Source: Acidocella aromatica
Lineage (GTDB): Bacteria; Pseudomonadota; Alphaproteobacteria; Acetobacterales; Acetobacteraceae
Assembly (NCBI RefSeq): GCF_014201825.1
Contig: NZ_JACHFJ010000007.1
Location: 62,001 to 126,000, forward strand
Length of the DNA: 64,000 nucleotides
Reading direction: 5' to 3'
Both the position numbers and the translations under genes were made by a program. This document shows positions 44,770-56,384 of this stretch, piece after piece. The notes below the pieces were generated by a model that ran no database searches, was not told the DNA's origin, and saw nothing but the letters and a program-made list of their open reading frames with translations. Position 1 is the first letter of the stretch, and each line of letters begins with the position of its first letter.

Positions 44770-46612
<1,843 letters not shown>

Positions 46613-49961: not shown

Positions 49962-50429
49962 TCAGCCCTTAAGCCGGCCCGCGGCGACGGTACGGATAAT
50001 GTCGGCGCGGCTGACGATGCCGACCACTTTGCCCTCACGCAGCACGGGTACGCGTTTGATATGGTGCTGCGCCAGCAGATCCACGATATCGGCCACGGCA
50101 ACATCCTCCGTCACGCTGACCACGTCATGCGTCATCAGATCCCCGGCGGTGCGCTTTTCCTGCTTCAGATATTCAACGAAATCCGGCGCCAGATCCTCGC
50201 CCTCGGCCAGCATCTCCAGCCACCAGGCGCGGCGGCTCTCCTGCTTGGCGCCGAGCTGGCGCATCAGATCCTGCTCGCTCACCATGCCGAGCAGCTTGCC
50301 CTCGGCATCAACCACCGGCGCCGCGCTGATCCCATGCTCGGCCAGCACGCCAGCCACCTTCGACACGTTGTCGAACGGGTGCACCACCACCACGTTGCGG
50401 TTCATGATATCGGCTGCCGTCACGGTCAT
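49962..50429 (-). CDS. Paired CBS-domain protein
   Basis: A 155-residue soluble protein of two CBS motifs (MTVTAADIMNRNVVVVHP... and AGDLMTHDVVSVTEDVAVAD...), separated by a charged 35-residue linker. CBS pairs bind adenosine nucleotides. Upstream of ftsH and probably co-transcribed; a perfect FNR box lies 58 bases before the ATG. A sensor of energy state acting with FtsH is a guess. Confidence 0.9.
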   Translation of the reverse strand: MTVTAADIMNRNVVVVHPFDNVSKVAGVLAEHGISAAPVVDAEGKLLGMVSEQDLMRQLGAKQESRRAWWLEMLAEGEDLAPDFVEYLKQEKRTAGDLMTHDVVSVTEDVAVADIVDLLAQHHIKRVPVLREGKVVGIVSRADIIRTVAAGRLKG

Positions 50430-50486: not shown

Positions 50487-50500
50487 TTGATTTCTATCAA
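50487..50500 (-). promoter_or_regulatory. FNR box upstream of the CBS-ftsH operon
   Basis: TTGATTTCTATCAA is a perfect FNR-type box. Its centre is about 65 bases before the CBS ATG, leaving room for a leader of about 23 bases in class II spacing. Confidence 0.75.
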
Positions 50501-52749: not shown

Positions 52750-54660
52750 ATGCAGCCGTTCTCACTATCCGCTAGGGCAGAAGCGTTGAATCACTTTGCC
52801 GCCGCGCCAGGAGGCGTCGATCCCGGGGATATCAGCCGGTCCTGGCAGCGTTGCCGGACCGCCGGGCTGACGCCCGAGCAAAACCGGCGGGACGACCCGC
52901 ACCTCACCCATGCCGAGCGGCGCATGGCGGCCGAGCGGCGCGCGACGCTGGTGACCCAGGCGCGGCCGGTGATGGAATATTTCTACAGCCAGATCAAAGA
53001 CTCCGGCTGCGTGATGCTGCTCTCGGACGAGAACGGCTACCTGCTGGATTCCGCCGGCGATGCCGATTTTTGCACCCGCGCCGCCCAGGTGGCGCTCAGC
53101 CCCGGCGCCTCCTGGGCCGAGGAGGCGCGCGGCACCAACGCCATCGGCACAGCGCTCATTGAGCGCAAGCCGATTGTGGTGACAGGCGCCGAGCATTACC
53201 TGCGCCATAACAGCTTCCTGGCCTGCGCCGCCGCCCCGCTCACCGAGCCGGACGGCAAGCTCCTCGGCGCGATCGACATCTCCTGCGACGCCCGGCGCTA
53301 CCACCCGCACACTTTCGGGCTGGTGCGCGCCGCCGCGCAGATGATCGAGAAGCGTATTTTCGAGCTGAATTTCGTCCTCCAGACCAAACTGCGCTTCCAT
53401 ATGTCCAGCAACTGCCTGGGCAGCCTGATGGAAGGTGCCGTGGCCATCGGCGAGGATGGCCGAATCCTGGGCGCCAACCGCCCCGGCTTTGCCATGCTGG
53501 GCCTGAAGTACGAGGATATCGGCAAGCGCGACATTTGCAGCCTGTTCGACATGACCATCCCTGAGTTGATGGCGCTGGGGCTGCGCTCGCAAACCGAGGC
53601 CGCGGGCGTACGCCTGCGCAATGGCGAGTTGCTCTACCTCACCGTGGAGCAGATGCGCGCCCCGGTGATTCGCCGCCCCGCCGTCCCCGCGGCGGACATT
53701 CAACAGCCCGACGCCCTGGCCGAACTGGACACCGGCGATGCCCGCGTGTCCAAGGCCATCAGCCAGCTCCGCCGGGTGCTGGGACGCAAGGTGCCCATCC
53801 TGCTGCAAGGCGAAACGGGGGCGGGCAAGGATTTCTTCGCCCACGCCATCCATGCCGCGGGGCCGCGCGCCAACGGGCCGTTCGTGGCGGTGAACTGCGC
53901 CGCCCTGCCGGAGACGCTGATCGAGTCCGAGCTGTTCGGCCACGCTCCCGGCGCCTTTACCGGCGCGCGCAAGGAGGGCTCGCCCGGGCGCATCCGCGAG
54001 GCGCATGGCGGCACGCTGTTCCTGGACGAGATCGGAGACATGCCGCTGGCGATGCAGACCCGCCTGCTGCGCGTGTTGGAGGAAGGTACCGTCACCCCCA
54101 TCGGCGGCAAGCCCGTGCCGGTGGATTTCCTGCTCATCTCCGCCACCCATGCGGATTTCACGGCCCGCATCGCGGCCAAGACCTTCCGCTCCGACCTGTA
54201 TTACCGGCTGAACGGGCTTTCCGTCTCGCTGCCGCCCTTGCGCGAGCGCACCGACGTAGCGGCGCTGACCGAACGCATCCTGGCGCGCGAGGCAGCCGCG
54301 CGCGGAGGCCGGGCCCCTACCCTTTCGCCCGAGCTGGCCGAAGCCTGCGCCCGCTATACCTGGCCCGGCAATCTGCGCCAGCTCTCAGGGATGCTGCGTA
54401 CCGCCTGCCTGATGCTGGACGAGGGTGAGGACACACTTCACCTGCATCACCTCAGCGAGGAAGCTTTGCGCGAACTCACCACCAAGCGCCCCACCACTGT
54501 AACGTTGGAAGCCTCCGGCGCCACGTTGCGGGAACAGTCGGACGCGATGATCGCCGCCGCGGTGGCGGAGGCGGGCGGCAACATCGCCGCCGCCGCGCGC
54601 AATTTGGGCATCAGCCGCAACACACTGTACCGCCGCCTTGGCAATGTGCGCGAGCATTAA
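52750..54660 (+). CDS. Sigma-54-dependent Fis-family transcriptional activator (AcoR-like)
   Basis: A 636-residue enhancer-binding protein. A GAF-type sensor region covers roughly residues 60-210, a PAS-like segment about 215-300. The AAA domain (about 320-545) has GETGAGKDFFAHAI (Walker A), ELFGHAPGAFTGARK with the GAFTGA loop that contacts sigma-54, and the Walker B FLDEIGDMP. A Fis-type helix-turn-helix ends the protein (NIAAAARNLGISRNTLYRRL). Divergent from the aldehyde dehydrogenase and its sigma-54 promoter, its almost certain target. Confidence 0.93.
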   Translation: MQPFSLSARAEALNHFAAAPGGVDPGDISRSWQRCRTAGLTPEQNRRDDPHLTHAERRMAAERRATLVTQARPVMEYFYSQIKDSGCVMLLSDENGYLLDSAGDADFCTRAAQVALSPGASWAEEARGTNAIGTALIERKPIVVTGAEHYLRHNSFLACAAAPLTEPDGKLLGAIDISCDARRYHPHTFGLVRAAAQMIEKRIFELNFVLQTKLRFHMSSNCLGSLMEGAVAIGEDGRILGANRPGFAMLGLKYEDIGKRDICSLFDMTIPELMALGLRSQTEAAGVRLRNGELLYLTVEQMRAPVIRRPAVPAADIQQPDALAELDTGDARVSKAISQLRRVLGRKVPILLQGETGAGKDFFAHAIHAAGPRANGPFVAVNCAALPETLIESELFGHAPGAFTGARKEGSPGRIREAHGGTLFLDEIGDMPLAMQTRLLRVLEEGTVTPIGGKPVPVDFLLISATHADFTARIAAKTFRSDLYYRLNGLSVSLPPLRERTDVAALTERILAREAAARGGRAPTLSPELAEACARYTWPGNLRQLSGMLRTACLMLDEGEDTLHLHHLSEEALRELTTKRPTTVTLEASGATLREQSDAMIAAAVAEAGGNIAAAARNLGISRNTLYRRLGNVREH

Positions 54661-54702: not shown

Positions 54703-54716
54703 TTGATTTGTATCAA
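54703..54716 (+). promoter_or_regulatory. FNR box in front of a gene-less transcript
   Basis: TTGATTTGTATCAA is a perfect FNR-type box 43 bases past the acoR-like stop. Class II spacing predicts a transcript start near 54751-54753, with CATATT (54741-54746) as a possible -10. The only thing downstream is a strong terminator. Confidence 0.75.
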
Positions 54717-54750
54717 GGAACGGATCCGCAAAGAGAGGCACATATTGGTC

Positions 54751-54813
54751 ATCCCAAAGCGGATACACTCCCCAGACTTGGCCCTGCCATGAGAAATCAT
54801 GGCAGGGTTTTTT
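54751..54813 (+). ncRNA. Candidate FNR-activated small RNA
   Basis: Between the FNR box and a strong terminator lies a stretch of about 60 bases with no credible reading frame. It contains ACTCCCCAG (54767-54775), whose CUCCCC is complementary to GGGGAG-type ribosome sites, and ends with an 11-base hairpin and TTTTTT. The layout (FNR box, short body, C-rich seed, terminator) is that of an anaerobically induced sRNA such as enterobacterial FnrS, without sequence similarity being claimed. The 5' end is predicted from box spacing only. Confidence 0.5.
54782..54813 (+). terminator. Strong rho-independent terminator
   Basis: CCCTGCCATGA (54782-54792) pairs perfectly with TCATGGCAGGG (54797-54807) around a GAAA loop, then TTTTTT (54808-54813). 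It could end the acoR-like mRNA, 120 bases upstream, or the proposed small RNA. Confidence 0.9.
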
Positions 54814-54900
54814 CTTGAGACCCATCCAACACAAAACGCTTCAATTTCGGAATTAAAGTGTTGTAGCGTCCGCCTTAAAGTAACAAAATTTTTTGGTTCA

Positions 54901-54950
54901 GCTTTTTTCAAAAAGCCGCAATGACACCGCCTTTTTCACAAAAAAGGCGG
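54901..54950 (-). terminator. AT-cored hairpins downstream of hemN
   Basis: CCGCCTTTTT (54927-54936) pairs with AAAAAGGCGG (54941-54950), 20 bases past the hemN stop, and GCTTTTT/AAAAAGC follows at 54901-54916. The T-run is inside the stem, so it could serve either strand. The rest of 54814-54970 is AT-rich with no gene. Confidence 0.5.
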
Positions 54951-54970
54951 CGCCAGAAACTTTCAAAACA

Positions 54971-56347
54971 TCAAACCGCAGCAGAGTGGCGCGGCGTCGC
55001 GGCGTTGGCCTGCTTCAGATAGACATCGAAAAGCGCTGCAACATTGCGCACGAAGGGACGGCCGCGCTCAGTCACGCGCACGCGCTTTCCATCCCACTCC
55101 ACCAGTCCATCTGCGGCAAAACCACTGAGTGGTACTGCATCTTCCAGCAGCGGCGCGGGGTCAGACCCCATGGTTTTGGCCAAGGCGGGGATATCCAACT
55201 CCAGATCGCACATGATGCGCTCGATCACCGCGCGGCGCAGCCGGTCATCCGCGCTCAGCGCCACGCCGCGCGCAACGGGCAAGCGCCCCTCGTTGATCGC
55301 TGCCTCGTAAGCGGGCACGCCAGTGGCGTTCTGCACATAACCCTGCGGCAGCGCGCCGATGGACGAAGCCCCGAGCCCGAGCAACACGGGCGTGGCATCG
55401 GTGGTGTAGCCCTGGAAATTGCGGTGCAGCGCTTTCTCCTGCACGGCAGCGGCCATGGCATCGCCCGGCAAAGCGTAATGGTCCAGCCCGACGGGGATAT
55501 ACCCCCCCTCATGCTCCAGCACTTGGCGGATCATCCGCTCCTGGGCGAGACGCGCCTCGCCCCCCGGCAACGCGGCTTCGGGGATCAGGCTCTGGTGTTT
55601 CTTCATCCAGGGCACATGGGCGTAGCCGAACACGGCGGCGCGGTCGGCCTTGAGCGCCAGGGCTTGGCGCGCGGTGCGGGCCACGGACTCGGTGGTCTGG
55701 TGCGGCAGGCCGTAGATCAGGTCGAGATTGAGCGAGGTGACGCCCAGCCCGCGCAGCGCCTGGGCCGCGGCGGCGGTTTCCTCGAAGCTCTGGTGCCGGC
55801 CGATGGCCTCCTGCACCGCCTCGTCGAAATCCTGCACGCCGAGGCTGGCGCGGTTCACGCCCATCAGGCGCAGCGCGTCCAGGCAGTCAGGCGTCAGCGA
55901 GGTCGGGTCGATCTCGATCGCCACCTCGGCATCGGCACGCAGATGGAAGCGCTTGCGGACATGGTCCATGATGCCGGTAAGGCAGTCCTCCGGCATGGCG
56001 GTGGGCGTGCCTCCGCCCCAGTGCACCTGAGTGACGATGGCGCGGCGGCCGATCAGGTCGGCCAGCAGATCCAGCTCGCGCGAAAGCCACACCGCATAGG
56101 CGCGCTTAGGCCTGTCATTGCGCACCACGGTGGTGTTGCAGCCGCAATACAGGCAGAGCCGGTCGCAGAAGGGAACATGGATATAGAGTGAGACGGCGGC
56201 GTCAGGCGGCAACTCGGCCAGCCATTGCGCGTAGGTCTCGGCGCCTATACCGGGGTGGAAATGCGGCGCGGTGGGGTAGCTGGTATAGCGTGGTACGCGC
56301 CCATGGTAGCGGGCGATCAGCTCGGCATCGGTCATGGGCTTGTCCAT
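54971..56347 (-). CDS. hemN: Oxygen-independent coproporphyrinogen III oxidase
   Basis: Radical-SAM enzyme converting coproporphyrinogen III to protoporphyrinogen IX without oxygen. The 458 residues include PRYTSYPTAPHFHPG and HVPFCDRLCLYCGCNT, with the three [4Fe-4S] cysteines and the extra Cys typical of true HemN, and VHWGGGTPTAM. ATG 56347 or ATG 56335 (MTDAELIARYHG) may be the start; the FNR box 24-36 bases upstream favours the latter. Confidence 0.94.
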   Translation of the reverse strand: MDKPMTDAELIARYHGRVPRYTSYPTAPHFHPGIGAETYAQWLAELPPDAAVSLYIHVPFCDRLCLYCGCNTTVVRNDRPKRAYAVWLSRELDLLADLIGRRAIVTQVHWGGGTPTAMPEDCLTGIMDHVRKRFHLRADAEVAIEIDPTSLTPDCLDALRLMGVNRASLGVQDFDEAVQEAIGRHQSFEETAAAAQALRGLGVTSLNLDLIYGLPHQTTESVARTARQALALKADRAAVFGYAHVPWMKKHQSLIPEAALPGGEARLAQERMIRQVLEHEGGYIPVGLDHYALPGDAMAAAVQEKALHRNFQGYTTDATPVLLGLGASSIGALPQGYVQNATGVPAYEAAINEGRLPVARGVALSADDRLRRAVIERIMCDLELDIPALAKTMGSDPAPLLEDAVPLSGFAADGLVEWDGKRVRVTERGRPFVRNVAALFDVYLKQANAATPRHSAAV

Positions 56348-56370: not shown

Positions 56371-56384
56371 TTGATTCACGTCAA
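56371..56384 (-). promoter_or_regulatory. FNR-type box upstream of hemN
   Basis: TTGATTCACGTCAA matches TTGAT-N4-ATCAA at nine of ten positions. It overlaps the last four bases of cysK (stop at 56381). Class II spacing predicts a start near 56336, one base before the second possible hemN ATG. Confidence 0.65.

Follow-up and report, generated by a model that had tools for sequence, protein, structure and literature searches.

The window, by which we mean the whole 64,000-nucleotide stretch of DNA that was analysed, comes from an Acidocella genome of 2.88 Mb in 29 contigs. Between a regulator gene and the convergent gene hemN it holds the following features.

52750-54660, + strand: gene for a sigma-54-dependent GAF/Fis regulator (acoR in the initial annotation), ending on the strand of the RNA
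54703-54716, + strand: FNR box TTGATTTGTATCAA, perfect consensus match, centre 54709.5, at -41.5 from the conserved A
54739-54746, + strand: -10 region by sequence, CACATA or CATATT, register uncertain; relatives have equivalents at the same place
54751-54813, + strand: predicted small RNA of about 62 nt, +1 at A54751, the position at which conservation begins and to which the -41.5 rule also points
54751-54764, + strand: 5' hairpin, AUCC (54751-54754) with GGAU (54761-54764); 99% of cells paired, with a double change in two relatives
54765-54779, + strand: seed region ACACUCCCCAGACUU, anti-Shine-Dalgarno-like, unpaired in the predicted fold
54782-54813, + strand: intrinsic terminator and six-T tail; double changes in 7 of 11 pairs, 88.8% of cells paired
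54971-56347, - strand: hemN, the convergent neighbour, encoding oxygen-independent coproporphyrinogen III oxidase (NCBIfam TIGR00538, 439 bits against a cut-off of 325)
56371-56384, no strand assigned: FNR-like box of hemN itself, with one mismatch, from an FNR-box scan of the window

The TIGR00538 score bears out the identity given to hemN in the initial annotation. The upstream gene encodes a GAF/sigma-54/Fis regulator; for the name acoR there was no support from NCBIfam, where none of 25 listed matches reached its cut-off. The 3' end of the predicted RNA lies 157 bp from the hemN stop codon, and a separate inverted repeat, noted by eye, is found between the two (about 54927-54950). The stretch behind hemN at 54876-54962 has 14 other matches in the same genome (77-96% identity). 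It is a repeat dispersed through intergenic DNA, and an inverted repeat resembling a terminator forms part of it; an Rfam match to the Glutamine-II riboswitch at 54892-54950 was below threshold (19.2 bits compared to a cut-off of 33).

The box at 54703-54716 had been called perfect, which the window scan confirmed. There are three perfect FNR boxes in the window, and matches with at most two mismatches number 22, compared to a shuffle mean of 10.6. Class II FNR promoters have their box centred at -41.5, and it is this geometry that leads to the predicted +1 at A54751. The possible -10 of the initial annotation (CATATT, 54741-54746) is present, but the exact hexamer is uncertain, because two registers are possible in the relatives (-12 to -7 or -10 to -5 from the conserved A), with sequences such as TATAAG, TAAGCT and TATTCT at the same place. 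A sigma-70-type promoter scan found no site here, and the -10 region at 54739-54746 was not among its results. The genome encodes two CRP/FNR proteins above the Pfam cut-off, one of which (L137) has a Cx2Cx7C motif with a further Cys and the helix ETVSR, motifs that we take to be marks of an oxygen-sensing FNR; L137 is thus the predicted oxygen sensor. The other perfect boxes in the window precede the uptake-hydrogenase genes (hupS; 44869-44882, followed by a weaker box at 44883) and a CBS-domain gene (49962-50429, - strand; box at 50487-50500).

The terminator reported by the initial annotation, with 11 base pairs and six T, is found as described: it reads CCCTGCCATGA-GAAA-TCATGGCAGGG (54782-54807), its 11 pairs are extendable to 13, and the six T occupy 54808-54813. 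The proposed CTCCCC seed is likewise there, at 54768-54773, in the unpaired part of the predicted fold. The fold of 54750-54814 is unusually stable (z = -4.48), with none of 200 shuffles as stable. Nevertheless, a terminator scan alone was at chance (1 found compared to 1.7 expected) and no sigma-70-type promoter was predicted; conservation is what raises the feature above chance.

We found strong BLAST matches to a 141-base query in 16 genomes of the same genus (17 matches), and 7 of the 17 start at base 62 of the query, corresponding to 54751, the predicted +1. Alignment A1 and RNA model R1 were built from these 17 copies; R1 holds the RNA alone, and the FNR box is no part of the model. R1 added eight genomes with divergent RNAs (G028, G018, G010, G032, G006, G001, G005 and G004), and although the model holds no box, all eight have an FNR box in register. 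With a copy in G245 from a family-wide search, all 26 copies went into model R3. This model has matches in 29 of the 38 genus genomes (E <= 0.1); counting only matches with an FNR box, the RNA is present in 25 of the 38, in 26 copies, two of which, both from G016, are on short contigs and could represent a single gene that was assembled twice. The named carriers include A. aminolytica and A. facilis. The other 13 genomes are without a box-bearing copy. Four of them have uncounted R3 matches of at most 37.3 bits each: in G015, G031 and G003 there is no FNR box in the 75 bases upstream of the weak match, while in G002 the upstream sequence fell outside the box check. The G015 relative (L075 1501-1569, + strand; 37 bits) has a TATAAA-like -10 and is possibly a copy under other control.

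The box has at most one mismatch to TTGATNNNNATCAA in all 26 copies (none in 19, one in 7). Measured from the first hairpin base, normally an A, its centre is at -41.5 in 20 copies and at -40.5 in 6; thus, relative to the predicted +1, every copy has the box geometry of a class II activated promoter. The spacing from box to RNA is constant, and the sequence in between varies except for a few box-adjacent bases and the AT-rich -10 region.

Structure was assessed in a 26-row alignment (A2) with all rows used and two helices named (15 pairs). In A2, 91.5% of cells pair, and compensatory changes occur in 10 of the 15 base pairs. None of 500 shuffles reached the observed value on four of five measures, and 17 of 500 did so on the fifth (further pair types); all six slid controls were lower than the named helices. 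In G005 and G001 the 5' hairpin has changed on both sides, from A-U to G-C. In 14 of the 26 rows the innermost pair of the terminator is unformed, and the pair changes of G004 depend on the alignment, which is shifted in that row. The seed sequence ACACUCCCC is invariant in the 17 copies of A1 and altered in 8 of the 9 further copies of A2. The initial annotation had made its reading depend on conservation of box and hairpin in relatives, and both are conserved, the boxes in register in 26 of 26 copies and the hairpins through compensatory changes; box, register, structure and conservation can all be read directly from the DNA.

A scan for box plus seed in a genome contig collection gave 27 stretches, of which 22 are from Acidocella (13), Acetobacteraceae (1) or Proteobacteria MAGs (8), all 22 with hemN in the locus; the remaining five, in unrelated taxa and without hemN, fit chance. 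We also searched the family with R1 (249 genomes, E <= 0.01) and R3 (397 genomes, E <= 5e-4), in overlapping draws under strict filters. Among the matches read from these searches there was no copy outside the genus with a box in register, except possibly in G241. Sixteen R1 matches outside the genus had no FNR box in the preceding 90 bases (L126, L128 and L129 left out), and we rejected these sixteen as copies of the RNA; several of them resemble alphaR8 RNAs or ordinary terminators. In G241, from another genus of the Acetobacteraceae (g83), an FNR box precedes, at the spacing of the -41.5 rule, an element made up of a 7-bp 5' hairpin, then CACACCUCCCACAACUGG, then a terminator. This element (L246 4412-4530, - strand) lies at the end of a gene that by eye is isocitrate-lyase-like, and not beside hemN; it could be distantly related or have arisen in parallel.

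These comparisons support the main proposal of the initial annotation, an FNR-activated small RNA between acoR and hemN. We conclude that the feature is probably a free-standing gene for a trans-acting small RNA that FNR activates, a reading to which we assign a probability of about 0.86. The further assertion that this layout is exclusive to small RNAs was too strong as logic, but few alternatives do remain, because the start is conserved, no reading frame is conserved and the upstream neighbour changes.

We considered that the RNA might instead act locally on the convergent hemN transcript, as an antisense regulator or at the 3' end, which would explain its linkage with that gene. Indeed, hemN is convergent and within about 1.5 kb in 24 of the 26 copies, and 10 of the 13 non-carrier genus genomes, G015 among them, have no HemN match at E <= 1e-80. 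Co-occurrence of RNA and HemN over the 38 genomes has a Fisher p of 6e-6, a figure that is only a guide, since 7 of the 13 non-carriers are less than 90% complete (77-89%). In this figure G004, whose locus is at a contig end with no hemN seen, was counted as hemN-negative without a search. The other three non-carriers have hemN with an FNR-like box before the gene and no adjoining small RNA. However, control of both genes by FNR explains co-inheritance equally well, the RNA of the window ends well short of the hemN stop codon with an inverted repeat in between, and G014 has its nearest hemN at a distance of about 2.6 kb. Moreover, pairing of the RNA to the hemN start is unremarkable, with 55% of random window stretches as good. 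A purely local role is thus quite improbable.

A terminator that merely ends the transcript of the upstream regulator, next to a box that is there by chance or that serves hemN, would fit a regulator gene that ends at 54660 on the strand of the RNA, and also the failure of terminator scans alone to rise above chance. However, that gene was seen within about 1.5 kb of only 11 of the 26 copies (two others are too near a contig end to tell), whereas box, register, structure and terminator persist. In addition, hemN has a box of its own at its 5' end, and constant spacing across variable sequence is not what this explanation leads one to expect, so that we regard it as very improbable. We give still less credence to a small protein gene or leader peptide, either on the + strand or in a GGGGAG..ATG frame on the minus strand, where GGGGAGTGTATCCGCTTTGGGATG does precede a frame of 18 codons. 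Among seven copies compared, the minus-strand frame ranges from 18 to 136 codons with variable sequence, and its ATG is gone where the RNA starts TATCC; the RNA itself has no obvious start codon with its own reading frame, and the sequence changes follow base pairing. A coding function is hardly credible in the face of this evidence.

Rfam at gathering level gave only a tRNA in the window and no family at the locus, where the best-scoring match was RF00519 (suhB/MmgR), the widespread bacterial alphaR8 family, at 21.9 bits compared to a gathering cut-off of 41. The score does not place the RNA in alphaR8, and the copies in G007 (27.9 bits) and G017 (26.8 bits) are also below the cut-off. The alphaR8 10-mer UUUCCUCCCU is absent from all 26 copies of A2, and the window has ACACUCCCCA in its place. 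An N-formylglutamate amidohydrolase gene, which according to excerpts of one study adjoins most single alphaR8 copies (PMC12559287), is not next to the RNA, flanked as it is by the sigma-54 regulator gene and hemN, although this neighbour is not required of alphaR8 siblings elsewhere in a genome. In contrast, the layout is that of alphaR8, with a weak 5' hairpin, an unpaired CU-rich anti-Shine-Dalgarno stretch and an intrinsic terminator. Thus, the Acidocella RNA is like alphaR8/MmgR/SuhB (RF00519) and the SisA-D RNAs in its architecture, and unlike them in having ACACUCCCCA instead of the 10-mer and an FNR promoter.

The same genome also has canonical alphaR8 copies, two above the cut-off (54.7 and 46.8 bits) and one just below (39.2 bits); one canonical copy (suhB; L130 1016-1089, + strand) adjoins the tmRNA gene in convergent orientation. 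Comparison of the alphaR8 core GTTTCCTCCCTAAACTTGGC to CTCCCCAGACTTGGC in the window places the common part just before the terminator, where ACUUGGC occurs in both the RNA and the Acidocella alphaR8 copies. In G005 and G001 the seed reads UUUCCUCC and then AAACUUGGC, and the match to the alphaR8 core (TGGAC..TTTCCTCC..AAACTTGGC) extends over 25 bases with a score of 33, which none of 400 shuffles equalled. At most 3 of 400 shuffles were as good in 11 of the 26 copies, and at least 19 of 400 in the other 15. A cmscan of the G005 and G001 loci (L071 and L073) gave no RF00519 match up to E 1. In cross-searches, 10 of 11 matches of model R2 fell at the small RNA locus, covering 10 of the 26 loci with a best E of 0.01, and 12 of 13 matches of R3 fell at the alphaR8 locus, covering 12 of the 21 with a best E of 0.07; individually these matches are weak. 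Since G005 and G001 keep a near-alphaR8 core, the comparison suggests that the RNA has an alphaR8-like body and is a diverged alphaR8 sibling under putative FNR control, not a formal member of the family. We put at even odds a history in which an FNR promoter next to hemN took over a duplicated alphaR8 gene in an ancestor of most Acidocella, and the seed of that gene then changed through intermediates like those of G005 and G001 (UUUCCUCC) to ACACUCCCC. The outcome would be a distinct regulon under oxygen control, of which G241 may have a related form.

The mechanism that we propose is as follows. At low oxygen, [4Fe-4S] FNR would bind the box at -41.5 and activate a class II promoter, from which RNA polymerase would start at A54751 and stop at the intrinsic terminator to give an RNA of about 62 nt. 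With the help of Hfq, the C-rich ACACUCCCCAGACUU stretch between the hairpins would pair to G-rich ribosome-binding sites and so repress a set of mRNAs. We infer Hfq dependence from an hfq gene in the genome (Hfq, 110.9 bits) and from the U-tail after the hairpin; transcription, FNR dependence and the targets are likewise predictions from sequence. The most concrete model for such action is provided by Caulobacter, in which, as described in excerpts of PMC12559287, SisA-D are alphaR8 siblings that share an anti-Shine-Dalgarno 10-mer but whose promoters are unrelated, and many mRNAs are under repression by SisA.

Two genes of the window had been pointed out as having ribosome sites complementary to the seed, and GGGGAG is found at ribosome-site distance both before hsp20 (9944, + strand; named by eye) and before the probable start of hupS (44760, - strand). 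As targets they gained no support beyond this generic match. Duplex energies were modest, with 4% (hsp20) and 17% (hupS) of 2000 random window stretches pairing as well. In 10 genomes, the strict pattern GGGGAGTGT..ATG had 28 matches compared to 11 for a backwards-pattern control; seven of the 28 are the small RNA gene on its other strand, and no orthologue recurred among frames of more than 60 codons. A looser pattern (GGGGAGT..ATG, 6 genomes) gave 182 matches by strand counts, compared to 90 for the backwards control. For this pattern we followed up 27 of 28 new loci (L173-L199, with L200 left out) and 40 further stretches, using BLASTP to compare those frames that had 60 codons or more (36 rows). 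Among the matches listed, which cover the genomes other than G007, genes that by eye are secretin-like (5 of 6 genomes), hydrolase-like (3) and extradiol-dioxygenase-like (2) recurred. We do not name any of the three as a target, since strong Shine-Dalgarno sequences recur anyway, and also set aside GGGGAGTTCCGGCATG (4 of 5 genomes, among the matches listed), which looks like coding sequence. Before the pilus-secretin-like gene (L196, L181, L176, L234 and L235) the sequence GGGGAGTTYAARTTCTGATG is conserved in 5 of 6 genomes among the matches listed; it may mark a target, or it may just be a strong ribosome site.

FNR-controlled small RNAs as such are already known. Excerpts of PMC8139620 describe FnrS as an FNR-activated small RNA, made anaerobically, whose pulse overproduction repressed more than 30 mRNAs. 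The initial annotation took FnrS as the closest analogue, which is fair in logic, as the predicted Acidocella RNA would also be FNR-activated, but in its body the RNA is nearer to alphaR8 (MmgR/SuhB/Sis). We saw no sequence relation to FnrS, the 5' hairpin and C-rich seed being alphaR8-like, and Rfam gave no FnrS match either in the window at gathering level or among the 12 matches at the locus up to E 10. In Rhodobacter sphaeroides, PcrZ is induced at low oxygen, under FnrL control that may be indirect, and RSs0019 and RSs2461 have promoters with FnrL ChIP sites and were called functionally uncharacterised in a 2014 paper (excerpts of PMC8139620 and PMC4263372). We liken these alphaproteobacterial small RNAs tied to FnrL to the Acidocella RNA by description, not by sequence. 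Among the results listed by searches of open-access full texts there was nothing on an Acidocella small RNA or on an FNR-driven alphaR8 RNA. If our interpretation is correct, the RNA is a conserved candidate for a directly FNR-driven small RNA in the Acetobacteraceae, and this in acidophiles exposed to fluctuating oxygen. Such an RNA would add an oxygen branch to the alphaR8 family, whose known roles are in carbon and nitrogen control, and would make evolution of an alphaR8-type seed traceable within one genus.

We also note that the FNR box of hemN (56371-56384) is just 24 bp 5' of the first ATG (56347). The -41.5 rule puts transcription start about 1 nt before a second in-frame ATG (56335), and thus hemN may be leaderless. 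The hemN locus of L241 is similar by eye.
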